From NCBI GenBank assembly GCA_027491155.1, contig JAIXWR010000043.1, positions 109,356 to 173,355 of the forward strand: a stretch of 64,000 nt of DNA, written 5' to 3'. The notes below the pieces were generated by a model. The model saw only the letters and a program-made list of their open reading frames with translations, did no database searches and was not told the DNA's origin. Shown here in pieces: positions 12,138 through 34,371 of the stretch. Source of the stretch: Verrucomicrobiaceae bacterium. GTDB lineage: Bacteria > Verrucomicrobiota > Verrucomicrobiia > Verrucomicrobiales > Akkermansiaceae. Every line of letters starts with the position of its first letter. Within the stretch, counting starts at the first letter, position 1. The translations under genes were made by a program, and so were the position numbers.

Positions 12138-12165
12138 TCACCGCGAAACCCAACCTTCCTGAACC

Positions 12166-12843
12166 ATGAAAACCCCCACCTTCATCACCTCGGCCGCCTG
12201 CTTTGCCCTCGTCGCATCCGCGTCGATGGCCGCCACCGTGAACTGGGACGCGCCACAGGCCATCAGCGGGGCGTCCGACGTCTCCACCGAAGGCACCTAC
12301 TTCGGCTCCTGGGCGCCTTTCAACGGCAACGCCAACCAGTTCCCGGTCAACGGCGTGACCTTCCAGGGCTTCGACGACCTCGGCATTACCAACTCCGGCT
12401 TCTCCGGCGACGGCGGCCCGTATTTCGGCTCCCACACCACGGGCAACTCGAATTACAACACGCTGATGACCTACGGCGTCTACGCCAACGGCACCACCGC
12501 CAGCTTCACGCTGAACGGCAGCGGCACCGTCCCTCTGGTCATCGGCCGCGAATACCTCGTCCAGGCCTGGGTCAGCGATGCGAGGAATCTCGGCATATTC
12601 CGCTCCCAGACCATCAGCGGCTCCGGGGCGATGGCCTTCCCTTCGAACGGCACCGGCATGGGCTCCTGGGTCATCGGCCGCTTCACGGCGGACGCCGTTT
12701 CCCAGCAGTTCGTCATCAGCGCCAACCAGAGCGCCCAGTTGAACCTGCTGCAAGTGCGGGACATCACCCCGGTGCCCGAACCCTCCGCGGCTCTCCTCGG
12801 CAGTCTCGCGTCCCTGCTGCTCCTGCGGCGTCGCCGGGCTTAG
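12166..12843 (+). CDS. PEP-CTERM sorting-domain exoprotein
   Basis: A 225-aa protein with a signal peptide (MKTPTFITSAACFALVASASMAA) and a C-terminal VPEPSAALLGSLASLLLLRRRRA tail: a PEP motif, a hydrophobic helix and an arginine cluster. This is the PEP-CTERM signal recognised by exosortase for surface or extracellular-matrix sorting; no exosortase gene is in the window. The body (residues ~22-203) is the same domain as the N-terminal part of the protein encoded at 9894, for example GTYFGSWAPFNGNANQF, ITNSGFSGDGG and VSDARNLG. The gene is 28 nt downstream of its paralogue and is followed by a strong terminator. The tandem pair seems to have arisen by duplication with different C-terminal fates. 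Confidence 0.88.
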   Translation: MKTPTFITSAACFALVASASMAATVNWDAPQAISGASDVSTEGTYFGSWAPFNGNANQFPVNGVTFQGFDDLGITNSGFSGDGGPYFGSHTTGNSNYNTLMTYGVYANGTTASFTLNGSGTVPLVIGREYLVQAWVSDARNLGIFRSQTISGSGAMAFPSNGTGMGSWVIGRFTADAVSQQFVISANQSAQLNLLQVRDITPVPEPSAALLGSLASLLLLRRRRA

Positions 12844-22202: not shown

Positions 22203-22766
22203 ATGGCCAGCACGCCCGTCATCAACCTCCGCAAAGGACACGCCGTCCGTCACAACAACGACGTCTGCGTCGTGATCTCCCACGAACTCAAGACGCCGCC
22301 GCGCATGGCGTCCTACGTGGTGATGTCGATCCGCAGCGTCGCCAACAAGAAGGTCTCCAATCTCCGCCTCACCTCGAACGACTCGATGGAGTCCGTGCTG
22401 CTCGAGCGCATCCCTCACGAATACTCCTACAAGGATTCCGGCGGCTACCATTTCCTCAACAACGAGACCTACGACGACGTCGCCGTCCACGACGAGATCA
22501 TCGACTCCGTCCGCGACTACCTGATCGAAGGCAACACCTACACCCTGCTCTTCGCCGACGGCCTGGTCGCCGACATCGAGCTTCCGCCCTCGATGGTGAT
22601 GGTCGTCGCCGATTCGCCGGAAGGCGTGAAGGGCGATTCCGCCAGCAACGCCTACAAGTCGGCCACCATGGAGACCGGCCTCGTGGTGCAGGTGCCGCTC
22701 TTCATCAATCCGGGCGAGAAGCTCATCATCAAGACCGACGACGCGTCCTACCTCGGCCGCGCCTGA
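22203..22766 (+). CDS. efp: Elongation factor P
   Basis: 187 aa, standard EF-P length, with three beta-barrel domains: an N-terminal KOW-like domain (INLRKGHAVRHNNDVCVVISHE), the OB domain (YHFLNNETYDDVAV, PPSMVMVVADSPEGVKGDS) and the C-terminal domain (ATMETGLVVQVPLFINPGEK, ending YLGRA). EF-P relieves ribosome stalling at polyproline. The loop that carries the modified lysine in E. coli (KPGKGQA) reads KTPPRMA here, so there is no Lys34; an Arg is nearby. I recall the same loop in other Verrucomicrobia. A strong terminator follows. Confidence 0.93.
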   Translation: MASTPVINLRKGHAVRHNNDVCVVISHELKTPPRMASYVVMSIRSVANKKVSNLRLTSNDSMESVLLERIPHEYSYKDSGGYHFLNNETYDDVAVHDEIIDSVRDYLIEGNTYTLLFADGLVADIELPPSMVMVVADSPEGVKGDSASNAYKSATMETGLVVQVPLFINPGEKLIIKTDDASYLGRA

Positions 22767-22929: not shown

Positions 22930-24099
22930 ATGAGCTCCCGTTGCCCGCTCCTGATCGCCTCGTTCCTGGCCCCCGCCCTGCGGGCCCACGGAGAACTGCC
23001 GCCGCAGGAGTATGAATACGGCTTCCAACTCTATCAGGAGGACGACAACCGCATCCGCGTCGAGGCCGAATACCTCCGGGCGCGGATGGAACTGAACCCC
23101 GAGACCGCGATCCGCTTCCAGTATCTGCGCGATGCCGTGAGCGGCTCCTCCCCGACCGGCGCGCTTCCGGGAAGCGCCCAGCCGTTCCTTTCCCCGCTCG
23201 AGGACGTCCGGCGCGGCATCCTCGGCGCCATCTCACGACAGTTCGGCGACCACCGCGCGGAGATCGAGTTTTCCTGCAGCGAGGAAGACGACTACGTCTC
23301 CCGCGGGATCGCCCTCACCGATACCCTCGAGCTCAACCAGAAAAACACCACGCTGCGCTTCGGGCTCAATTACCTCGACGACACGGTGCTCGTCCCCGGA
23401 CTCGGCGACCGCGACAAACGGACCACCGACTTCTTCGCCGGCGTGAGCCAGTTGCTCGATGCGAACACGGTGCTCACCGCCAACCTCACCCTCGGCCACG
23501 CCCAAGGCTATCTGAACGACCCCTACAAGCTGGTCCAGCGCACCGAGTTCATCTCCCTGCCCGACGGCAGCGGCGGCACCATCGACGTGCCGGTGGTGAA
23601 GGTTTACCGCGAGAACCGCCCGGATTCCCGCTTCCGCCAGGTGCTCCAGCTCGGCGCCCGGCACTACATCGAGCCGGCCGACGCGGCGATCGATGGCATC
23701 CTGCGGCTGTCCCACGACAGTTTCGGAGTCTTCTCCCAAACCGTGCAGGTCGAATGGCGGCAGCAGATCGGCAAGAAGTTCCAGGCCGTTCCCTTCGTCC
23801 GTTACTATCACCAGAACGAGGCCGACTTCTTCACCAACACGATCGACGCCTTCCCCGGCACGCCATCCTCCAATCCCAACGGCAGCGGCCCGAACTACTC
23901 GGCGGACTACCGCTTGTCGTCCTTCGACTCCATCAGCGGCGGGCTCCGGCTGAGCTACCAGATCACCGCGAATTTCTCCGCGACCGCCGCCTACGAGCGC
24001 TACGTCATGGACGGAACCGGCGGGAACTCCGCCACCTCGCCCGACCCGGCCTACCCGGCCGCGGACATCTGGACTTTCGGAATCCAAGCGGCATTTTGA
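22930..24099 (+). CDS. DUF3570 outer-membrane beta-barrel protein
   Basis: 389 aa from ATG 22930, whose N-terminus is a signal peptide (MSSRCPLLIASFLAPALRAHG). The body is beta-rich with alternating aromatic strands and ends in a terminal aromatic residue (WTFGIQAAF), as outer-membrane barrels do. DUF3570-like elements are YQEDDNRIRVEAEYLRAR, AIRFQYLRDAVSGSSPTGALP and YHQNEADFF. The DAVSGSS segment (D68-S74) resembles the D-x-x-[ST]-G-A-[ST] FMN-attachment motif. It is the first gene of a four-gene set with apbE, DUF4266 and an Ig-like protein (gaps of 4, 6 and 5 nt). Its function in the family is undefined; a link to flavinylation is an inference. Confidence 0.75.
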   Translation: MSSRCPLLIASFLAPALRAHGELPPQEYEYGFQLYQEDDNRIRVEAEYLRARMELNPETAIRFQYLRDAVSGSSPTGALPGSAQPFLSPLEDVRRGILGAISRQFGDHRAEIEFSCSEEDDYVSRGIALTDTLELNQKNTTLRFGLNYLDDTVLVPGLGDRDKRTTDFFAGVSQLLDANTVLTANLTLGHAQGYLNDPYKLVQRTEFISLPDGSGGTIDVPVVKVYRENRPDSRFRQVLQLGARHYIEPADAAIDGILRLSHDSFGVFSQTVQVEWRQQIGKKFQAVPFVRYYHQNEADFFTNTIDAFPGTPSSNPNGSGPNYSADYRLSSFDSISGGLRLSYQITANFSATAAYERYVMDGTGGNSATSPDPAYPAADIWTFGIQAAF

Positions 24100-24103
24100 T
24101 CCG

Positions 24104-25075
24104 GTGAGCGCGCCTGCCAGCGATCCGAGCCTGTCGCCCGATCCCCAGGGGATCAGGCGCGTGGCATTCCGGGCCTTGGGGACGAACTGCTCGATCCAGT
24201 TCCGGCTCGACGACGACCGCGCCGCCCTCGAGTTCGCCGCGCGGGCGCTCGGCTGGCTCGGCGACTTTGAAGCAAAGTTCTCCCGCTACCGGCCGGACTC
24301 GATGATTTCCCGCATCAACCGCGAAGCCGGTAGCGGCTGGGTCGCGACCGATCCGGAGATGGACGCCATGCTGGATCTGGCCGAAGAGGTCCACCGCCGC
24401 AGCGATGGCATCCTCGACGCGACGCTGCTCCCCCTGGAGCAGGTTTGGGACTGGAAACAGGTGCACCTCGCGCTTCCACCGGCCGACCGCGTGCGCGAAG
24501 CTTTGGCACTGACCGGCTGGGACAAGGTCGAGCGACGCCCCGGGGCGGTCCGCCTCCCGCTTGCCGGCATGGGCCTCGATTTCGGCGGCTTCGGCAAGGA
24601 ATACGCCGTGGACAGCATCGCGTGGATGGCCCGGCAGCACGGCATCCGCGACGCGCTGGTCGATCTCGGCCGCGACCTTCATGCGCTCGGCGGAAACGGC
24701 AGGCACCCCTTCTGGCACGTCGGCATCGAGGACGGCTGCCACCCCGGCACCTGCTGGGGCGGCCTTGCCGTCAGCGACCAGGCCGTCTCTGCCTCCGGCG
24801 ACTACGCCCGTTACTTCGTCCACGACGGGGTCCGCTACGGCCACATCCTTGACCCTCGGACCGGCTGGCCGGTCGCAAACGGAATGCGCGCGGTGACCGT
24901 GATCGCCCCGACCTGCCTCGACGCCGGCATCTACAGCACCTCCGTATTTGTCCTAGGTCCCCGCGACGGTCTTCACCTTGCGTCGCTGGCCTTCGGCGTG
25001 GAAGTATGTGCGCAATCCGAGTCCGGCATCGAAACCTCCCGCGCGTTCGGCAGTTTCCTTGTCCAAGCCGCTTGA
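24104..25075 (+). CDS. apbE: FAD:protein FMN transferase (ApbE family)
   Basis: 323 aa from a GTG at 24104, 4 nt after the DUF3570 stop. ApbE transfers FMN from FAD to Thr or Ser of target proteins outside the cytoplasm. Visible blocks are FRALGTNCSIQF, FEAKFSRYRPDSMISRINR, EEVHRRSDGILDAT, the flavin-binding DFGGFGKEYAVDSI (family usual DLGGIAKGYAVD), ALVDLGRD, AVSASGDYARYF and HILDPRTGWPV. The metal region is CLDAGIYSTSVFVLG, where most members have ADALATALFVLG. No clear signal peptide is seen: the N-terminus is short and polar, so an upstream start or another export route may exist. Its genetic partners suggest a dedicated target in the same operon. Confidence 0.9.
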   Translation: MSAPASDPSLSPDPQGIRRVAFRALGTNCSIQFRLDDDRAALEFAARALGWLGDFEAKFSRYRPDSMISRINREAGSGWVATDPEMDAMLDLAEEVHRRSDGILDATLLPLEQVWDWKQVHLALPPADRVREALALTGWDKVERRPGAVRLPLAGMGLDFGGFGKEYAVDSIAWMARQHGIRDALVDLGRDLHALGGNGRHPFWHVGIEDGCHPGTCWGGLAVSDQAVSASGDYARYFVHDGVRYGHILDPRTGWPVANGMRAVTVIAPTCLDAGIYSTSVFVLGPRDGLHLASLAFGVEVCAQSESGIETSRAFGSFLVQAA

Positions 25076-25081
25076 ATCACC

Positions 25082-25303
25082 GTGAAACCCATCCTCACAC
25101 TTCTGGCCGTCGCCACCCTGCTGCCCGCCTGTTCCCCGGCCCTCGTCCGGGTGAAGCCCTACGAACGCGGCACGCTGGCACGGCCGGTCATGGCCGATAG
25201 CCTCGACCCTCTCGGCACCGCGATGACCGATCACGCCTACTATTCCCGCGAAGGCAGCTTCGGCGGCGGCGGCGTGGGCGGCGGCGGCTGCGGATGCAAT
25301 TGA
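25082..25303 (+). CDS. DUF4266 small lipoprotein
   Basis: 73 aa from GTG 25082, 6 nt after apbE. The N-terminus is a lipoprotein signal (KPILTLLAVATLLPAC, lipobox LPAC at C17). The mature part carries the family core VKPYERGTLARPVM and HAYYSREGSFGGGG. It ends in a Gly-rich tail closed by CGCN, with two cysteines in the last four residues. DUF4266 genes commonly occur beside DUF3570 and apbE, but their function is not established. The Cys pair could bind a metal or a cofactor or form a disulfide. Its stop precedes the Ig-like gene by 5 nt. Confidence 0.85.
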   Translation: MKPILTLLAVATLLPACSPALVRVKPYERGTLARPVMADSLDPLGTAMTDHAYYSREGSFGGGGVGGGGCGCN

Positions 25304-25308
25304 ACCCC

Positions 25309-28005
25309 ATGCACCCCGTCCTTCCATCGAGGATCCTCCGGCGCCTTCCCTTCCTGCGGGGCCTGACGTCGAAGCTCGGCTCCCTGCTCCTGCTGTTCCA
25401 GCGTTCCCCGCTGGTCCAGATGCTCTTCCCCGAAGCGAAGCTGCTGGGCGGCGCGGGCATGGGAGAAGCCATGAAATGGACGGTCCGGACCGTCGCAGGC
25501 CTCGGGACCTTCGATTCGGTCGCCGGCGCGACCGAGATCAGCCAGGTGATCCCGGACCAGGGTGCCGGCGAAATAAACGCAATCGCCGGCAGGTTCCTCA
25601 ACGTCCTGGTCCAGGTCACCGGCACCCCCAGCGACGACGAAGTGAGTTGGAGCGTCGATGGACTGCCCGCGGGCTTGAACCAGATCGACCAGGGGGACGT
25701 GTCGACCCACCTCATCAGCGGCACTCCGCAGGAAGCGGGACAGACAACGGTCACCGTCACCGCCTGGCAGTTTCCGAACCAGACGGGCGAATCGTTTTCC
25801 CGGGAGTTCCTGTTCATCGTCGCGCCTCCCATCATCGCCACCCAGCCCGCCTCGGTCGCCATTCCGGAGAACACCACCACGACGCTGAGCGTGACCGGGA
25901 ATCCGAACGAGAGCACGCTGACCTACCGCTGGTATCGGGGAAATTCCGGCAACACCTCGAATCCCGTGACCGGCAGCGCGGGCAGCGCGGACACCTTCAC
26001 GACGCCCGTCCTCAACTCCTCCAACACCCCCGCCAGCTATTGGGTCCGCGTCACCCGCGACGGCGTTTCCCAGGATTCCAACACCGCGACGGTGACGATC
26101 GCGTCCCCCCCCGGAATCACCAGCCAGCCGGCATCCACCACCATCGTCACCGGCAGCAGCGCAAGCCTTAGCATCGGGACTTCCGGCACGGTGACCTCCA
26201 TCCAGTGGTATCAGGGCGATTCGGGCGACACCTCGAATCCGGTCTCCGGCGCGATCACCGCTTCCTTCAATACCCCCGCACTCACGGCGACCACCCGCTA
26301 CTGGGCCAGGGTCGCCAACACCAGCGGGTTCACCGATTCCAGCACCGCGGTCGTGACCGTCGCGGAGAACATCGTCGCCCCTGTGATCACGCAACAACCG
26401 GCATCGGTCACCATCGACAGCGGCGGCACGGCCACCCTGTCGGTCACCGCTTCCGGCACTACCCCCGCCTTCCAATGGTATATCGGGCTGACCGGCGACA
26501 CCTCGTTGCCGGTGCCGGGAGCCTTCTCGGCAAGTTTCACCACGCCGGCGCTCTCCACGACCACCCGCTACTGGGTCAGGGCCTCGAATTCCGCCGGGGA
26601 TGCCGATTCCGACGCCGCACTGGTCACGGTGAATCCTCCGCCGCCCCCGGGGGCCGGTCCCTTCAAGCTGGGGGAAGCCGTCACGGTCGATCTCAACGGA
26701 CTGAAGGAGGGCAGCCAAACGCTGAAACTGGTCGGCAAGCTGCCGAAGGGCCTCAAGTTTAGCGCCACCACCGGGCGGATCACGGGCACCGTCGGCGGCA
26801 CCACCGGAACCTACCCGCTCAAGGTCCAGGTGTTTCAGGGCAAAACCCTCGTCGAAACGATCGACTACCCGATCGTGATCGCCGGGTCGCTCTTCTTCGA
26901 AGGCCGCTACGAAGCCCTGCTGGAAGTCGCGGCCGGCATTCCCGCCGGGGTGCTCAAGATTACCTTCAAGAAGGGCAACGCCTGGCAGGCGACGCTGCAG
27001 TCGCCCGGGGCCAAGGCCCGCAAGGCGTCCGGCAAGCTCGTCGTCACGCCGGGCACCACCGCCGGCACCGTCAGCGCCGCTTTCCCGGCGAGCGGAAGCG
27101 CTCCGGCCGTCGCCCTCACCGCCACGCTCGATCTCGAGAGTCCGACGTTCTCGGGCACCTACAACGCGGGAACGCTGCGCGGATTCCGCATGGCCCGCGG
27201 GTCCGAACTCCCCGCCTCCGGCACCCCGCTCGGCCTCGTTTTTGAAACCGGCCCCCACGACGGCATCACCCTTCCCGGCGGCCTCGGCTGGGCCGGCGGC
27301 GTGATCGGCCCCGCCGGGACGGCCACTTTCAGCGGGGTGCTCGGCGACGGCACCGCGATCGAACTCCCCCTCCAGCTCTCCGCTTCGGGACAAGCCATCC
27401 TTTGGTCACAACCCAACGCGGATCCGCGCTCCTACTTCGGCGGCATCGTCACCTTGCCCGATCTCGGGCAGACCGTCGCCGGCAGTCCGCCCCTGGAGCC
27501 GAATGTCTGGTGGTTCAAGGCCGCCGATGCCAGGTCGCCCAGCTATCCCGCCGGCTTCCCCGCGATGGAGGTCAGCGTCGGCGGCAGCCGGTGGACGGTG
27601 CCCGCCAGTGCCGCCGCGCTCGGGGCCTCCCTCGGTTGGGAGAATGGCAGCGATGCCTCCGTGGAGATCGACGGCGCCGGCCTCTCCAATGCCGCGCCGC
27701 AATCGACCAACCCGGTCCTTCCGACCGGCTTCGCCTTGGACGCGTCGTTCCAACTGAACGCCCCCGTCGCGCCCTCGATCGTGCCATGGACCGGCAAGGT
27801 GAATCCCGCCGACGGCACCTTTTCCGGCAGCTTCGCGCTTCCCGCCGGTCTCGCGCCCGACGGCATCGCCGGCGGGGCCGCCACCAGCGGCATCCTCCTG
27901 CAGTCGGATGCCTGGGGCACCATCACCGGATGCGGCCTGATCAAGGTTCCCGTGGCCGGCCCCAAGGGATCCTTCCGGACCGCCGCCATCGTCCTCCGGC
28001 AATAG
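25309..28005 (+). CDS. Ig-like domain exoprotein with flavinylation-like motif (898 aa)
   Basis: ATG 25309 gives MHPVLPSRILRRLPFLRGL; an in-frame ATG at 25294 would overlap the DUF4266 gene by 10 nt. The N-terminus is basic and amphipathic with a short hydrophobic run (LGSLLLLF), not a standard signal peptide. A distinctive module follows, ending GLGTFDSVAGATEISQ: DSVAGAT is close to the ApbE target motif D-x-x-[ST]-G-A-[ST], with T75 as the would-be acceptor. Three Ig-like repeats of ~85 residues come next (QPASVAIPENTTTTLSV, QPASTTIVTGSSASLSI, QPASVTIDSGGTATLSV), then a putative-Ig module (LPKGLKFSATTGRITGTV) and a ~370-residue beta-rich C-terminus. It closes the apbE set. Flavinylation is my hypothesis. 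Confidence 0.7.
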   Translation: MHPVLPSRILRRLPFLRGLTSKLGSLLLLFQRSPLVQMLFPEAKLLGGAGMGEAMKWTVRTVAGLGTFDSVAGATEISQVIPDQGAGEINAIAGRFLNVLVQVTGTPSDDEVSWSVDGLPAGLNQIDQGDVSTHLISGTPQEAGQTTVTVTAWQFPNQTGESFSREFLFIVAPPIIATQPASVAIPENTTTTLSVTGNPNESTLTYRWYRGNSGNTSNPVTGSAGSADTFTTPVLNSSNTPASYWVRVTRDGVSQDSNTATVTIASPPGITSQPASTTIVTGSSASLSIGTSGTVTSIQWYQGDSGDTSNPVSGAITASFNTPALTATTRYWARVANTSGFTDSSTAVVTVAENIVAPVITQQPASVTIDSGGTATLSVTASGTTPAFQWYIGLTGDTSLPVPGAFSASFTTPALSTTTRYWVRASNSAGDADSDAALVTVNPPPPPGAGPFKLGEAVTVDLNGLKEGSQTLKLVGKLPKGLKFSATTGRITGTVGGTTGTYPLKVQVFQGKTLVETIDYPIVIAGSLFFEGRYEALLEVAAGIPAGVLKITFKKGNAWQATLQSPGAKARKASGKLVVTPGTTAGTVSAAFPASGSAPAVALTATLDLESPTFSGTYNAGTLRGFRMARGSELPASGTPLGLVFETGPHDGITLPGGLGWAGGVIGPAGTATFSGVLGDGTAIELPLQLSASGQAILWSQPNADPRSYFGGIVTLPDLGQTVAGSPPLEPNVWWFKAADARSPSYPAGFPAMEVSVGGSRWTVPASAAALGASLGWENGSDASVEIDGAGLSNAAPQSTNPVLPTGFALDASFQLNAPVAPSIVPWTGKVNPADGTFSGSFALPAGLAPDGIAGGAATSGILLQSDAWGTITGCGLIKVPVAGPKGSFRTAAIVLRQ

Positions 28006-28198
28006 AACTTCCGTTCTGGCCACCGCACTGCCCTGGAACCGAATGCGGTACGTGAATCTCCGCAAAGCCAAACTTTCCGCTGGCTTCCCCTTAGACCTTC
28101 TGGCATGCGATCAAGCGTTCACCTCCCCTAACAGTTGATGTCCCGTGGCAGATTTCCCACTGCCCCCCCGCGGACAGGTTTCCTTCCAACCAGCCGCC

Positions 28199-31100
28199 AT
28201 GCACCCTTCTTTCCGTCTCGCCGTACTCGCCGCCTGCCTTTGCGCACCTGTCCGCGCCGACCTCGATCTGGACTCCAACAATCTCGGGGATGTCTGGGAA
28301 GCCAAGTTCCAGCCCACCGTCTTCCAACCCGGAGCGGATAACGATGGCGACGGACGCACCAACCGTGAGGAATTCGAAGCCGGCACCGATCCCCTGCGCG
28401 CGGAGGATGTCTTCGCCATCCGGGAAATGCAGTCGAGCGGTGGAAATCTGGTGCTGAAATGGCCGAGCCAAACCGGCAAGCGTTACCAGATCCAATCGAC
28501 CGAGAACCCGGGACAAGCCGGCTCCTGGACCAATCTTCCCGGCCAACACTCCGGCAACAACGGGGACCTCACGGTGCCCGTGCCGCGACCCTCCTCCGGC
28601 AAGGCATTCTTCCGGGTGATCGCCGCCGACGTCGACTCGGACGGCGACGGCCTGACCGACTGGGAGGAAATCCAGGCAGGCTTCAATCATCAGGGCGGCA
28701 ACGATCTCGCCGCCCTCACCGCCGCCCTCGAAAGCGATCCCGTGGTGAGCATCGTCGCCACGGACGCCGAGGCCGCCGAACCCGGCCAGTCCTCCAATGC
28801 CGATTCCGGCAACTTCCGCGTCCAGCGCAGCGGCGGCATCGGGCGGATCGTGGTCAACCTTTCCGCAAGCGGCAGCGCGGGTCCCGGCGACCACACCGGG
28901 CTGCCATCCTCGGTCACCTTGCCGATGACGGTCAACGAAGCCCCCGTTCCACTGGTTCCGGTCGCCGATTCGGTGGTCGAATCCGACGAACTGGCGGTCG
29001 TTTCGGTCTCGCCCGGCACCGGTTACACCACGGGCGCCTCCACCACGGCCGGGGTGCTGATCAAGGATCTGGTCCAACCGAACGGAACCGGCCTTCGGGG
29101 CGAGTATTGGAAGCATCCGACCAGCGCATCGAATTCCCCCTATTTCGGCGGTGCCGGCAACTTGCCGCCCAACATCTCCCGGATCGATCCCCAGGTGAAC
29201 TTCGACAATACGGTCGCCACTTGGCCGGGTGGCTTGCCGGTCGCGCCCGGCACGGTCGCATCGGATTACTTCTCGAGCCGTTGGAGCGGAGAAATCCTTC
29301 CCGAGTTCTCCCAGACCTACACCTTCTTCACCAATACCGACAACGGCGCCCGGCTTTGGGTGAACGGCCAACTGATCATCAACAACTGGCCGCCGGCCTC
29401 GGTGACCACCAGTGAAGTCTCCGCGATTTTCACGATGGAAGCCGGGAAGCGCTACTCGGTGGTCTTCGAGCACTACAACAACACCTCGGCCCATCGAGCC
29501 ATCCTATCCTGGCAGTCGACCAGCCAGGCAAAGCAGGTGATCCCGCAGGCCCGCCTGTTCCCCAACACCCCGCCGCGCATCTTCGCCCCGCTCGACGCTT
29601 ACGCCTTCGTCGGCGGCCCTGCCCTGAGCTTCCAGATCAATGCCAGCGGCTCCCCCACTTCCTACTCCGCCGCGAACCTTCCCGCCGGCTTCACGATCAA
29701 CTCCTCCACCGGCGTGATCTCCGGCAATGCCAGCGTGCCCGGTGAATGGAAGGTGATGGTCACCGCGACCAATGCCCAGGGTTCCGGATCCGCCTTCCTC
29801 AATCTCACCGTTCTCCAAACCAGCGGCGGCATCACCCAGGAACTCTGGACCGGCGTGCCGGGCTCGACCGTCGGGCAGATCCCGCTCGGCCAGGCACCCT
29901 CCTCCTCTTCCCTCCTGACCTCGCTTCAAAGCCCCGCCGACAGCGGCGACGACTTCGGCGTGCGGATCCGCGGCTTCCTGACCGCTCCCGAAAGCGGCGA
30001 CTACCGGTTCTATCTCCGTGCCGACGAGGCCGCCGAGTTCTACCTCTCCGATGATGAGGAGCCCGTGAACTCGTGGAAGCGCGCCGAACTGGCCGCACCC
30101 GTGACCTCCGCCGATTGGTCGGCCGCCGCTCCGACAACCCTCCTCCGCCTCGAGGCCGGCCGCCGCTACTACCTTGAAGTGCGCCACAAGGAAGCCACCG
30201 GCAGCGACCACCTCGCCGTCGGCTGGGTGACACCTTCCGAGTCCACCAAGACCACACCGGTCATCACCACCGTCCCCGGCCATGTCCTGACCCGCTACGA
30301 GGATGTCACCCTCGGCACCTGGCCGGCCTTCACTCCCCCGGCCCCGGCCCCCGACTGGACCGCTGAAGCCGGCACCTCGAATACCAACGCCAACGCCGCC
30401 GCCCGCTTCCTCCAGCAGGCGACCTACGGCGCCAGCCCGGCGGACATCGCGGCCCTTCAGGCGATGCCCTCGTTCGAAGCCTGGATCGATGCGGAGCTCC
30501 TGAAGTCTCCGACTTACCACCGGCCCTACGTCGAGCAGTTCCGCACCGTCACCAATCCGAACAGCCCGACCTACCCCGAGACCCTCTCCTACAACTCCTG
30601 GTGGAAGCACTCCATCCAGGCGGACGACCAACTCCGCCAGCGGGTCGCCTTCGCGCTCAGCCAGATCATGGTGGTGTCCGGAAACGTTCCGCTGGATGAC
30701 CGGGCGGACACGGTTTCGGACTACTACGACATGCTGCTCGACAATGCCTTCGGCAATGTCCGCGATCTCCTCGAGAACGTCACGCTGCATCCGGCAATGG
30801 GCCGCTACCTCGACATGCTGCGCAACGACAAGCCCAGCCTGACCGCCGGACGCATCCCGAACGAGAACTACGCCCGCGAAATCCTCCAGCTGTTCTCGCT
30901 CGGCCTTTACCGCATGAACCCGGACGGCTCCCAGATGCTCAACTCCAAAGGCGAGTTGATCCCCGTCTACGACCAGGAAGCCATCATCGGCCTCGCCCAT
31001 GTCTTCACCGGCTGGGATTACTTCTACACCGGAAACTATCGCACCACCCTGGGCGCCGGCTCCAACTGGGTCGATCCGATGCGTGAAGTCCCCGCCCGCC

Positions 31101-32830
31101 ACTACACCGGCAGGAAGCGCCTGCTCAACAATGTCGTCCTCCCCGGCATCCCGGTGCTCAACGGCACGCCGCTCAATCCATACGGCGATCACAGCGGATC
31201 GACCATCGCCAACAATCCCGAGTTCCAGGCCCTGCCCACGCTCGAACTGGATGCCGTCCACGACCAGATCTTCCAGCACCCCAACATCGGCCCCTTCCTT
31301 TGCCACCAGCTGATCCAGCGCCTGGTCACCTCCCATCCGAGCCCGGGCTACATCTACCGAGTGGTCAGCAAGTTCAACGACAACGGCTCCGGCGTCCGCG
31401 GCGACCTGAAGGCCGTCATCAAGGCGATCCTCCTCGACCACGAGGCCCGCTCGATCGCGCTGGCGAACACCGAGGAAACCTTCGGCAAGCAGCGCGAACC
31501 GGTGCTCCGCGTCACCCAGCTCGCCCGCGCCTTCCGGCCAGCCAACAGCTTCGCCGGCACCTATGCCCAGGACGGCGGGCTCATCACGGTCAACACCGGA
31601 GCGGTCAACCATCGGTTGAGCAATGGCCAGAAGACGCTGCTCGGCTTCTCGGGAGCCGGCATCCAGGCTTCCGACGCAGACTATTCCGTGAGCAGCGCCC
31701 TGCCTACGACTGCCAACTCGTTCACGGTCCGCACCAGGGATGTCGTTCGCGGAACCTGGTCGATCCCCGCCGACTCGGCGACCATGACGGTAACCGCAGG
31801 TAGCAGCCACGGTTTAGCCACCGGCCAGTCGGCTTATCTGCGCTTCCGCACCGGCGGCGGCGGTGCCTTGCTGGACGGGGTTTATGCCGTAACCGTGACC
31901 TCCAGCACCGTCTTCACCATCCCGGTGACACCGGATACCGTCCTCCGCAGCGGCGACATCGACGTGGCTTGGCTGCGTGGGAGCTACTCGCAGAGCTACA
32001 GCAGCACGACAGGGGTGACCACCCTCACCGTGACCTGCGGCACCCTTCCCGGCCAGGTCGTGGGGAACAAGCTGACCCTGAGCTTCACCTCGTCCAATAC
32101 CCTGTCAACACCTCCGAACGGCGTTTACACGATCGCGACGATCAGCGCCACGGAACCCCGGCGCTTCACGCTTACCCCGGACAGCGGGATCCAATCCACG
32201 CTCAACGGCAGGTCCGGCACCTTCAATGCCGCCCCGCACACTCCGGTGCTCGACCGCAGCGGCGATGTGACCGCGGGCTATTCGGACTGGAACGTCGGAA
32301 ACACCGACACAGTTCTCGGCCAGACCCCGCTGGGGGCCCCCACCGTCTTCAACTTCTTCGAGCCGACCTACAAGTTCCCCGGCGAACTCGCGGATGCCGG
32401 GCTGACCACGCCCGAGTTCCAGATCAGCTCGGACACGAATGTCATCCGTCAGGCGAACTTCTTGTTCGGGGGGATCTACAGCAGCACCTCCAGCTTGACT
32501 TCGGGAGGATACTCCAACGGCTTCGGCAGCTTCCGTGACGGTCTCGGAGACATCACGATCGATGTCTCGCCCTGGATGGGACCCCGGACCACCGGCACCA
32601 ACTATTGGACGAACACCGTCAATCTCCGCGACCTGATCCGGGAAATGTCGAAGCTGCTCATGGCCGGCCAGATGAGCCAGGCCATGGAGGACCAGATCTA
32701 CAATCACGTCTCCAACACCGCGAACGTGGCCTATAACGCCACGACTCCCACCGACTCCGAAAGACGCAACCGCATCCGCGGCATCATCTACTTCATCGCC
32801 GTTTCCCCCGAGCACGCGATCCAACGCTGA
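28199..32830 (+). CDS. DUF1800 exoprotein with two PA14 domains and an insertion in the DUF1800 region (1543 aa)
   Basis: ATG 28199 starts a signal peptide (MHPSFRLAVLAACLCAPVRA); the frame opening at 28145 begins at a GTG and lacks one. Residues ~20-190 contain calcium-type repeats (DNDGDGRTNREEFEAGTDP, DSDGDGLTDWEEIQAG). PA14-like domains lie at ~298-430 (YTFFTNTDNGARLWVNGQ) and ~543-680 (YRFYLRADEAAEFYLSDDE), with a putative-Ig module between (FTINSSTGVISGNA). DUF1800 starts near 730 (AARFLQQATYGASPADI) and includes RIPNENYAREILQLFSLGL. It is interrupted at ~1128-1345 by beta-repeats, then resumes at GQTPLGAPTVFNFFEP. DUF1800 proteins pair with DUF1501 proteins, as here (14 nt downstream). 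Probably extracytoplasmic; the reaction is unknown. Confidence 0.85.
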   Translation: MHPSFRLAVLAACLCAPVRADLDLDSNNLGDVWEAKFQPTVFQPGADNDGDGRTNREEFEAGTDPLRAEDVFAIREMQSSGGNLVLKWPSQTGKRYQIQSTENPGQAGSWTNLPGQHSGNNGDLTVPVPRPSSGKAFFRVIAADVDSDGDGLTDWEEIQAGFNHQGGNDLAALTAALESDPVVSIVATDAEAAEPGQSSNADSGNFRVQRSGGIGRIVVNLSASGSAGPGDHTGLPSSVTLPMTVNEAPVPLVPVADSVVESDELAVVSVSPGTGYTTGASTTAGVLIKDLVQPNGTGLRGEYWKHPTSASNSPYFGGAGNLPPNISRIDPQVNFDNTVATWPGGLPVAPGTVASDYFSSRWSGEILPEFSQTYTFFTNTDNGARLWVNGQLIINNWPPASVTTSEVSAIFTMEAGKRYSVVFEHYNNTSAHRAILSWQSTSQAKQVIPQARLFPNTPPRIFAPLDAYAFVGGPALSFQINASGSPTSYSAANLPAGFTINSSTGVISGNASVPGEWKVMVTATNAQGSGSAFLNLTVLQTSGGITQELWTGVPGSTVGQIPLGQAPSSSSLLTSLQSPADSGDDFGVRIRGFLTAPESGDYRFYLRADEAAEFYLSDDEEPVNSWKRAELAAPVTSADWSAAAPTTLLRLEAGRRYYLEVRHKEATGSDHLAVGWVTPSESTKTTPVITTVPGHVLTRYEDVTLGTWPAFTPPAPAPDWTAEAGTSNTNANAAARFLQQATYGASPADIAALQAMPSFEAWIDAELLKSPTYHRPYVEQFRTVTNPNSPTYPETLSYNSWWKHSIQADDQLRQRVAFALSQIMVVSGNVPLDDRADTVSDYYDMLLDNAFGNVRDLLENVTLHPAMGRYLDMLRNDKPSLTAGRIPNENYAREILQLFSLGLYRMNPDGSQMLNSKGELIPVYDQEAIIGLAHVFTGWDYFYTGNYRTTLGAGSNWVDPMREVPARHYTGRKRLLNNVVLPGIPVLNGTPLNPYGDHSGSTIANNPEFQALPTLELDAVHDQIFQHPNIGPFLCHQLIQRLVTSHPSPGYIYRVVSKFNDNGSGVRGDLKAVIKAILLDHEARSIALANTEETFGKQREPVLRVTQLARAFRPANSFAGTYAQDGGLITVNTGAVNHRLSNGQKTLLGFSGAGIQASDADYSVSSALPTTANSFTVRTRDVVRGTWSIPADSATMTVTAGSSHGLATGQSAYLRFRTGGGGALLDGVYAVTVTSSTVFTIPVTPDTVLRSGDIDVAWLRGSYSQSYSSTTGVTTLTVTCGTLPGQVVGNKLTLSFTSSNTLSTPPNGVYTIATISATEPRRFTLTPDSGIQSTLNGRSGTFNAAPHTPVLDRSGDVTAGYSDWNVGNTDTVLGQTPLGAPTVFNFFEPTYKFPGELADAGLTTPEFQISSDTNVIRQANFLFGGIYSSTSSLTSGGYSNGFGSFRDGLGDITIDVSPWMGPRTTGTNYWTNTVNLRDLIREMSKLLMAGQMSQAMEDQIYNHVSNTANVAYNATTPTDSERRNRIRGIIYFIAVSPEHAIQR

Positions 32831-32844
32831 AACCCACCAAAGCC

Positions 32845-34371
32845 ATGTCCAACATCGACCAGGACCGCGCCCGCCTCCTCCGCACCCGCCGCAGCTTCTT
32901 CCGCACCGTCGGTGGGGCCGCACTGGGATCCGCCGCCATTTCCACCACTCTCCGGGATTTCAGGCTCATCAACTCCGCGCTCGCCCAAGGCCCGGGCGCC
33001 GCTGGCTTCGACGACTACAAGGCGCTCGTCTGCATCTTCCTCAACGGCGGCAACGATAGCAACAACCTGATCGTGCCGCGCGGAGCGGTCGCCCATGCGA
33101 ATTACGCCGCGATCCGAGGGAATCTGACCATCCCGGAATCCTCGCTGCTGCCCATCACGCCCGACAACAACGACGGCAACGAATACGGTTTCCATCCGCT
33201 CTGCACGGAAATGGCAAACCTGTTCCAAGCCGGAAAACTGGCCACGGTCTTCAATGTCGGCCCGCTGCTCTTCCCCACCACGCGGGTCCAGTATCAGAAG
33301 AAGACCATCGCCCTGCCGCCCCAGCTCTTCTCCCACTCCGACCAGGTCACGCATTGGCAGACCTCCCTGCCCGACCAACTGCCCCGCTCCGGATGGGGCG
33401 GCCGCATTGCCGATTTCCTGCATCCCTACCAGAAGGAACTCCTCGCCGAGGCCGACCGGGCGAAAATCGCCCTCTGCACCAGCATCGCCGGGTCCAATAC
33501 CTTCGAGGTCGGCAACTCCGTCCAGCAGTTCCACGTTTCCACCAGCGGTGCCGTGGTGCTTGCGGGTGCCGCCACCGGTTCCGCCCGCGAGAACCTCGTC
33601 CGCAGCCTCGCCAACCTTCCGAACAGCAACCTTCAGGCAAAGGCCTTCGGCGACGTGATCGACAACGCCATCGCCGCCGGAGCCTTCCTGAACGACGCGA
33701 TCGGGGAAACCTCCCCCAGCGCCCCGGCCAACTGGGTCTGGAACACCCCCTTCCCGAGCGGCTCGCTTGGCGACCAGTTGAAGATGGTGGCCCGCATCAT
33801 CGCCGGGCGGAAAGAACTCAAGATCAAGCGCCAGATCTTCTTCGTCACCGTCGGGGGCTACGATACCCACACTTCGCAGATGGGCCTCAACAACGATGCC
33901 TTAACCGGCTCCCACGCCAACCTGCTCGGCACCCTCAGCAAGGCCATCGGTGCCTTCCAGGCCGCCATCGAACAGATCGCCGCCCATCCCGTCCTCGGCG
34001 ACGGCCCGGCGGGCAATACCAAGGTGGCCAACAATGTGGTGGGGTTCACCGCGTCCGACTTCGGCCGCACCTTCCCGACCAACAGCCAGGGCAGCGACCA
34101 CGGCTGGGGCGGGCACCACATCGTCTTCGGCGGCAATGGCAACCCGGCGAACGGGGCCGTCATCGGCAAGAAGACCTACGGCCGTTTCCCGGTCCACCAG
34201 ATCAACGGTCCCGACGATACCAGCACCGGCCGCTGGATCCCATCGACCAGCGTGGACGAATACAGCGCCACCCTGGCGAAATGGTTCGGGGTGTCGCCGA
34301 CCTACATGGACGACGTCTTCCCCAACCTGGGCCGCTTCGCCACACCCGACATGGGGTTCATGAGGTCGTGA
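32845..34371 (+). CDS. DUF1501 family protein with Tat-type leader
   Basis: 508 aa. The N-terminus carries a twin-arginine-like leader (RTRRSFFRTVGGAALGSAAIS). DUF1501 core features are KALVCIFLNGGNDSNNLIVP, YGFHPLCTEMANLFQAGKLA, FSHSDQVTHWQTS, IFFVTVGGYDTHTSQ, VVGFTASDFGRTFPTNSQGSDHGWGGHHIVFGG and a C-terminal LAKWFGVSP. The fold is related to alkaline-phosphatase/sulfatase enzymes, and the Asp/His-rich GSDHGWGGHH could hold a metal. DUF1501 and DUF1800 genes are widely paired in Planctomycetes, Verrucomicrobia and some Proteobacteria. The pair's function is not known. Confidence 0.9.
   Translation: MSNIDQDRARLLRTRRSFFRTVGGAALGSAAISTTLRDFRLINSALAQGPGAAGFDDYKALVCIFLNGGNDSNNLIVPRGAVAHANYAAIRGNLTIPESSLLPITPDNNDGNEYGFHPLCTEMANLFQAGKLATVFNVGPLLFPTTRVQYQKKTIALPPQLFSHSDQVTHWQTSLPDQLPRSGWGGRIADFLHPYQKELLAEADRAKIALCTSIAGSNTFEVGNSVQQFHVSTSGAVVLAGAATGSARENLVRSLANLPNSNLQAKAFGDVIDNAIAAGAFLNDAIGETSPSAPANWVWNTPFPSGSLGDQLKMVARIIAGRKELKIKRQIFFVTVGGYDTHTSQMGLNNDALTGSHANLLGTLSKAIGAFQAAIEQIAAHPVLGDGPAGNTKVANNVVGFTASDFGRTFPTNSQGSDHGWGGHHIVFGGNGNPANGAVIGKKTYGRFPVHQINGPDDTSTGRWIPSTSVDEYSATLAKWFGVSPTYMDDVFPNLGRFATPDMGFMRS

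Follow-up and report, generated by a model that had tools for sequence, protein, structure and literature searches.

A candidate N-terminal flavinylation site in an immunoglobulin-like protein encoded beside a DUF3570–ApbE–DUF4266 cluster of a Verrucomicrobiaceae bacterium

Which proteins does an ApbE enzyme serve when its gene is located among those for a DUF3570 barrel, a small DUF4266 protein and a large immunoglobulin-like (Ig-like) protein? This question is raised by a 64,000 nt stretch of DNA from a Verrucomicrobiaceae bacterium (assembly GCA_027491155.1, contig JAIXWR010000043.1, positions 109,356 to 173,355), hereafter the window, which lies on contig C35 (genome of 5.73 Mb, assembled into 46 contigs). 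Four consecutive genes on its + strand encode DUF3570, ApbE, DUF4266 and the Ig-like protein, separated by 4, 6 and 5 nt on direct reading of the sequence. A preliminary description of this DNA had named the same arrangement, i.e. a barrel, ApbE, a small lipoprotein ending in CGCN and a large Ig protein, and the coordinates, the Pfam matches and a model of the barrel confirm it. DUF3570, ApbE and DUF4266, adjoining one another, each exceed their own Pfam cut-off, the DUF4266 protein starts with a lipobox-like LLPAC, and the Ig-like protein matches Ig_7, Ig_3, He_PIG and related domains. We propose that the Ig-like protein is probably a second ApbE substrate next to the barrel, with flavin mononucleotide (FMN) predicted on Thr75, the last residue of a conserved N-terminal module. 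This reading is based on a near-invariant GA[T/S] in the module, its co-occurrence with DUF4266, its likeness to the DUF3570 site and the existence of units made up of ApbE and a module gene.

The cluster as such is not new. In the sections of Meheust et al. 2021 (PMC8238504) available to us, DUF3570/DUF4266/ApbE clusters are described as a flavinylation type, the DUF3570 protein of Chlorobium (C. luteolum) is experimentally shown to be an ApbE substrate with two [S/T]GA[S/T] sites, and a thioredoxin-like gene and DUF4266, which has a CXC motif, are typical neighbours whether or not DsbD is present. The preliminary description had named the three genes as neighbours in other genomes, as the same source does, but without a described function, a point that the proven C. 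luteolum substrate corrects. The published ApbE motif is Dxx[ST]GA[ST], in which changes of the Asp had minor effects and changes of the Thr abolished labelling (PMC12052999, likewise available in part). As for the Ig-like partner, a literature search for flavinylation, ApbE and immunoglobulin together found no published description in the source sections available, and PMC11334425 mentions neither immunoglobulin nor Ig-like. Among the papers searched, DUF4266 appears in PMC8238504 alone. The new element is likely to be the conserved Ig-like partner itself, with its ApbE-like N-terminal site and direct link to ApbE.

Residues 1–90 of the Ig-like protein, searched against 5.8 billion proteins, retrieved 80 proteins, including the window's own (P0001), with named homologues from Luteolibacter, Prosthecobacter and other Verrucomicrobiota. 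The 79 heptads read by script were DSVAGAT (37), DTVAGAT (29), DSVSGAT (7), DTVSGAS (2), and DTVTGAT, DRVAGAT, DAVAGAT and a degenerate NSVSRAT (one each), ten of the 79 fitting Dxx[ST]GA[ST] in full; P0022, missed by the script, has DGVAGAT. Fifteen N-termini from such clusters, the others being 24–74 % identical to that of the window, share Gln31, Arg32, Pro34, Gly66 and Gly73-Ala74-Thr75 (window numbering). Column counts were made on 70 modules less than 70 % identical to one another, drawn from 177 aligned rows after very gapped rows had been dropped. The last three heptad columns hold Gly in 68, Ala in 70, and Thr in 69 with Ser in the other one, the residue after the heptad being free, and the fourth holds Ala in 55, Ser in 10, Val in four and Thr in one. 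The first column is Asp in 31 modules, His in 26, Asn in 11 and Gln in two. One fixed pattern recovered the heptad in 89 of 98 module open reading frames (ORFs), and the background within the first 160 residues was two of 1726 other ORFs (at least 200 residues, six frames), one of which is likely kin (L096). Since the module profile includes the heptad columns, strongly deviating modules could be missed.

Some homologues are unusual in build. The L096 frame (L096:9192-10220; 342 codons), far from a cluster, has a shortened module without QRxP and with the end NSMAGAT, followed by an Ig-like part, and the module protein of L042:2005-9819, with a frame of 2604 codons, contains a large number of repeats, each about 90 residues long and almost the same as the next. 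Matches to Cupredoxin_1 (18.1 to 33.6 bits; cut-off 27) amid the Ig repeats of some homologues had suggested a fused cupredoxin, which we rejected, these being presumably Ig cross-matches.

The module follows the flavin cluster closely across genomes, in profile searches in which first-look candidates were scored. Among 288 genomes sampled from the phylum, 29 have DUF4266 and 15 a strong module match; all 15 have DUF4266, and none of the 259 DUF4266-negative genomes has a strong match (hits at E 0.005–0.008 in G242, G262 and G287 were set aside as noise). In a related family, f5 (150 genomes), module and DUF4266 are found in 81 genomes each, together in 78, singly in three each, and neither in 66 (Fisher p 8e-35, kinship ignored). 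The genomes with the module only are G307 and G369, which have DUF3570, and G297 (81 % complete), which gave no DUF3570 or DUF4266 match and has the module and a signal-less ApbE; those with DUF4266 only are G310 and, with partial or weak matches, G298 and G320. Three genomes of the window's own genus have neither.

This association extends to gene order. Distinct DUF4266 loci were fetched to the number of 96, and in 74 a module lies downstream on the same strand (61 within 300 nt, three at 301–1000 nt and ten further away). A module-pattern scan of relatives' contigs (Verrucomicrobiaceae, Akkermansiaceae, Prosthecobacter and the like) found DUF4266 upstream in the same cluster at 27 of 30 loci, including L123 with a tandem module gene in between, while the remaining three begin no more than 113 bases from the module; as the scan pattern demanded most of the heptad, these loci bear on adjacency only. 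The order in L127 is DUF4266, module protein, DUF3570. Module copies on stretches without cluster genes (L092–L095) retain GAT, and one genome (G403) has five copies. The neighbourhood survey proposed earlier thus shows the Ig-like gene kept beside the cluster across relatives. The contrary picture, i.e. ApbE paired with a classical target and an Ig-like gene that is not conserved, was not found, Nqr and Rnf subunits not having been searched for.

Individual loci depart from the compact arrangement. Tandem module genes follow one cluster in L107:9860-14295 and L123:6709-12943. Opitutus-type clusters (L055, L037, L182, L216, L185, L190, L195, L202, L205 and L206) have 4–7 kb between DUF4266 and the module gene, with intervening genes that, named by eye, encode response-regulator-like, sensor-like and small secreted proteins and a further barrel-like protein.

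The barrel has a site of its own that resembles the module heptad. In the DUF3570 alignment, 52 of 56 rows fit [DN]xx[STAV]G[AS][ST] at this site and four are fragments, with SGAS, SGAT, AGAT, SGSS and VGAT as variants in relatives. Among the best 120 of 246 wider DUF3570 homologues, [ST]GA[ST] is found in one column in 117 and in a second column in 31; the aligned column presumably corresponds to one of the two C. luteolum sites, and a second [ST]GA[ST] site as reported for that species was sought and is not present in the window protein. Position 4 of the two heptads, compared in 69 clusters, gives the DUF3570/module pairs S/A 22, A/A 19, T/A 14, S/S 7, V/V 4, T/T 1, S/T 1 and A/S 1. The association is reached in none of 20,000 shuffles, overall or within the 43 f5 clusters, kinship being ignored. 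This comparison left out repeat fetches (L098, L099, L101, L110 and one copy of the L182/L183 cluster), clusters without a module in reach, and unreadable sites (L103, L104, L120, L127, L180, L184). Val never occurs in one partner alone among these 69 clusters, and in three of the four V/V genomes a second cluster has Ala in both partners. We read these shared residues, Val/Val included, as one enzyme selecting both sites.

Module genes are also found beside apbE itself, in the same operon in the window and directly after apbE in L234, L235, L236 and L237. Three of these loci, from one genus (G370, G290 and G349; L234–L236), are DUF3570-ApbE-module units without DUF4266, and the fourth (G395; L237) is an ApbE-module pair whose fetched stretch of 9 kb lacks both DUF3570 and DUF4266. 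No ApbE-module pairing was seen in the fetched stretches of G283 and G404; the ApbEs fetched from G404 (two of three) have signal-like starts.

Where would such an enzyme act? The window ApbE aligns with solved FMN transferases, its stretches 'asgdyaryf', 'yghildprtg' and 'cldagiyst' matching conserved ones, and the catalytic Ser, His and Asp named in PMC12052999 probably lie there. The 23 residues ahead of its core include no apolar stretch, nor does the frame look like a signal further upstream, and in many relatives the ApbE frame opens only about 25–60 codons before the core. The highest hydropathy before the core reaches at most 1.8 in cluster ApbEs, as against a median of 2.1 (lowest 0.9) in 89 DUF3570 N-termini, a scale that alone does not separate every case. 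FMN transfer outside the cytosol is not what the sequences predict: with no signal peptide seen in the cluster ApbEs, a cytosolic enzyme that modifies its substrates before export would be the simplest reading. The earlier idea of a dedicated flavoprotein set is supported, with the Ig-like gene conserved beside the cluster, and has to be corrected in this respect. The genome has two further ApbE loci, on C8 and C3, whose enzymes might act outside instead; the C8 ApbE and those of the divergent loci L061 and L062 have hydropathies of 1.9 to 2.4. L061, L062 and L063 contain a divergent DUF4266 type ending in GGGCGC[YF], with no close DUF3570 matched, and the ApbEs of L061 and L062 start signal-like.

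Several observations weigh against a second substrate or the scheme around it. The window heptad, DSVAGAT, has Ala at position 4, where the published motif has Ser or Thr, and does not match Dxx[ST]GA[ST]; the Ig-like protein is therefore claimed to work like a substrate, not as a proven one. The first heptad residue is often His or Asn in family f5, nine of the 98 module ORFs lack the pattern, and the window's barrel site, DAVSGSS, ends in GSS and not in GA[ST]. The covariation takes no account of kinship, and all four V/V clusters belong to genus g39. The 22 DUF4266 loci without a downstream module comprise 13 from other families of the phylum, one from G234, a genome of a sister family that has the cluster without the module, and eight from f5 that lack it in the fetched stretch, one being merely cut by the fetch. 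Seven f5 loci (L046, L178, L198, L199, L202, L205 and L217) yielded no ApbE near DUF4266 on its strand; all seven genomes carry ApbE elsewhere, in four of them directly preceding a module gene. Finally, 69 of 74 related module-bearing clusters have a thioredoxin-like gene between ApbE and DUF4266, but the window operon (25075-25082) has none, and neither have L104, L126, L129 and L127. Another reductant would therefore serve here; the best thioredoxin-like match in the genome, on C14, is partial (39 % over 97 of 161 residues).

The N-terminus could also be a long signal peptide in two parts, each a charged stretch followed by a hydrophobic one, that signal peptidase I cuts at AGA|T, leaving an exported, flavin-free Ig-like partner. 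Signal peptidase I acts on sequences with a charged start, an apolar core and small residues at −3 and −1, with free choice at −2 and +1. The module shows the first three of these features in columns 51–69 and in its hydropathy profile, which has two maxima: column 51 is Lys or Arg in 58 of 70 modules, and AGA|T is a plausible cut, A/S/T/V at −3 and Ala at −1 suiting the enzyme, which also counts against flavinylation. So does the AlphaFold2 (AF2) model of the Ig-like protein (mean predicted local distance difference test score, pLDDT, 66.9), in which residues 1–73 form low-confidence helices and the first strand begins at 76; the heptad is thus placed where the module meets the folded part, as would suit an exposed tag but also the end of a signal peptide. 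However, Gly at −2 in 68 of 70 modules and Thr or Ser at +1 in all 70 are unexpected for a cleavage site, and the restriction of the module to genomes with the cluster, the match of its heptad to that of DUF3570, with Val/Val pairs, and the ApbE-module units likewise speak against a signal alone, which we consider unlikely. Both readings could be partly true, e.g. if FMN on the +1 residue keeps the signal uncut.

Another possibility is that flavinylation is confined to DUF3570, the Ig-like protein acting as a structural partner that binds the barrel or DUF4266 by a contact which GAT serves. Its linkage with DUF4266 is indeed tight, and among the members of the set a proven flavinylated relative is known for DUF3570 only, as far as the available sections of PMC8238504 go. 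Nonetheless, ApbE and module are both present in L237, whose fetched stretch lacks DUF3570 and DUF4266, and in G297, where neither of these was matched; moreover, GA[T/S] is the part that is kept, the acceptor change seen being Thr to Ser. A purely structural role thus appears improbable. Ig-like exoproteins are common in such genomes, and the gene could in principle be a generic one lying downstream by chance; the next downstream genes (DUF1800 and DUF1501) are indeed not conserved. Conserved adjacency and co-occurrence contradict this, so that a chance neighbour can hardly be the explanation.

If the Ig-like protein is a second substrate, the signal-less ApbE would attach FMN in the cytosol, before export, to Ser74 of DUF3570 and Thr75 of the Ig-like protein. 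The flavinylated barrel would then insert into the outer membrane and the Ig-like protein would be exported, its module keeping it in the envelope. Thiol carriers, namely the CXC tail of DUF4266 and, in most relatives, the thioredoxin-like protein, would supply both flavins with electrons for an acceptor outside, electron transfer as the purpose being suggested by analogy. It is tempting to speculate, as something possible rather than probable, that Verrucomicrobia possess a natural, portable N-terminal flavin tag, with which a cytosolic, signal-less ApbE stamps the barrel and a class of Ig-like envelope proteins before export, some of them encoded far off and served in trans, so that flavins would form a relay leading from the cell to the surface. 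Large surface-type proteins, marked at the N-terminus, would then represent a further ApbE substrate class without a known flavin-binding domain. The DUF3570/DUF4266 clusters would gain a candidate outward partner, flavin-based envelope electron transfer would extend further in widespread soil and water bacteria, and the question would arise of how an FMN-bearing chain is exported.

Table 1. Features of the four-gene locus, in window coordinates (FAD, flavin adenine dinucleotide)
Feature	Position	Strand	Evidence
DUF3570 outer-membrane-type beta-barrel, 389 aa, N-terminal signal-like stretch	22930..24099	+	PF12094 206.3 bits; AF2 18 strands, pLDDT 90.3
Predicted ApbE site of DUF3570, heptad DAVSGSS, residues 68-74, acceptor Ser74	23131..23151	+	Aligned site column
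ApbE, FAD:protein FMN transferase, GTG start, no signal peptide seen	24104..25075	+	PF02424 235.7 bits; alignment with solved FMN transferases, e.g. 4xdt
DUF4266 lipoprotein-like small protein, 73 aa, GTG start, GGGCGCN end (CXC)	25082..25303	+	PF14086 72.5 bits; sequence
Ig-like protein, 898 aa, ATG start, predicted second ApbE substrate	25309..28005	+	Ig_7, Ig_3, He_PIG; co-occurrence with DUF4266
N-terminal module of Ig-like protein, residues 1-75: two hydrophobic stretches, QRxP, heptad	25309..25533	+	Alignments, column counts, 80 homologues
Flavinylation-like heptad DSVAGAT, residues 69-75, predicted acceptor Thr75 (codon 25531-25533)	25513..25533	+	Column conservation in 70 modules

The features of the locus are collected in Table 1. 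The AF2 model of the barrel (predicted template modelling score 0.83) finds its best Protein Data Bank matches among several outer-membrane barrel kinds (FadL, OmpG and TonB-type receptors; TM about 0.3–0.5). Its heptad lies within strand 3 (residues 59–78) and, by strand order in the model, the loop that follows would face outside. The 5′ neighbour of the operon (22203-22766) is, by Pfam, elongation factor P and not an operon member, and a scan for promoters and terminators gave no promoter-like and one terminator-like site, not above shuffled sequences. Downstream, positions 28145-34371 encode a DUF1800 protein with PA14 domains and then a DUF1501 protein, which were rejected as members of the set, the fetched loci outside the window having one hit each (L196 and L051). 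Elsewhere in the window, a secreted-looking protein (12163-12843) has QAISGAS near its start, probably by chance; with L096 it makes up the two background ORFs that show the relaxed heptad.

How does this locus compare with known systems? With the extended signal peptides of large surface proteins, the module has in common two charged/hydrophobic stretches before a cleavage-like site, but its −2 and +1 positions are nearly fixed and its occurrence tracks the ApbE cluster. Like the known ApbE substrates, i.e. FMN_bind proteins (including NqrC and RnfG), DUF2271 and DUF3570, the Ig-like protein has a heptad of the Dxx[ST]GA[ST] kind and is encoded near or beside ApbE; unlike them, it has no FMN_bind or DUF2271 domain by Pfam, and its heptad is N-terminal, ahead of the Ig-like domains, with mostly Ala at position 4. 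The clusters of PMC8238504, so far as its available sections describe them, share with the window ApbE, DUF3570 with a conserved heptad (reading SGSS at its end in the window), DUF4266 with a CXC end and a tight order, whereas the window operon has no thioredoxin-like gene and the Ig-like partner in addition. In the 'DsbD systems' of the same source DsbD is part of the cluster, whereas the sole DsbD_TM match of the window's genome is on C7, the window being on C35. Finally, in the engineered flavin-tag described in the sections seen of PMC12052999, a short motif at a protein end likewise suffices for ApbE; here, the tag would be a natural one.

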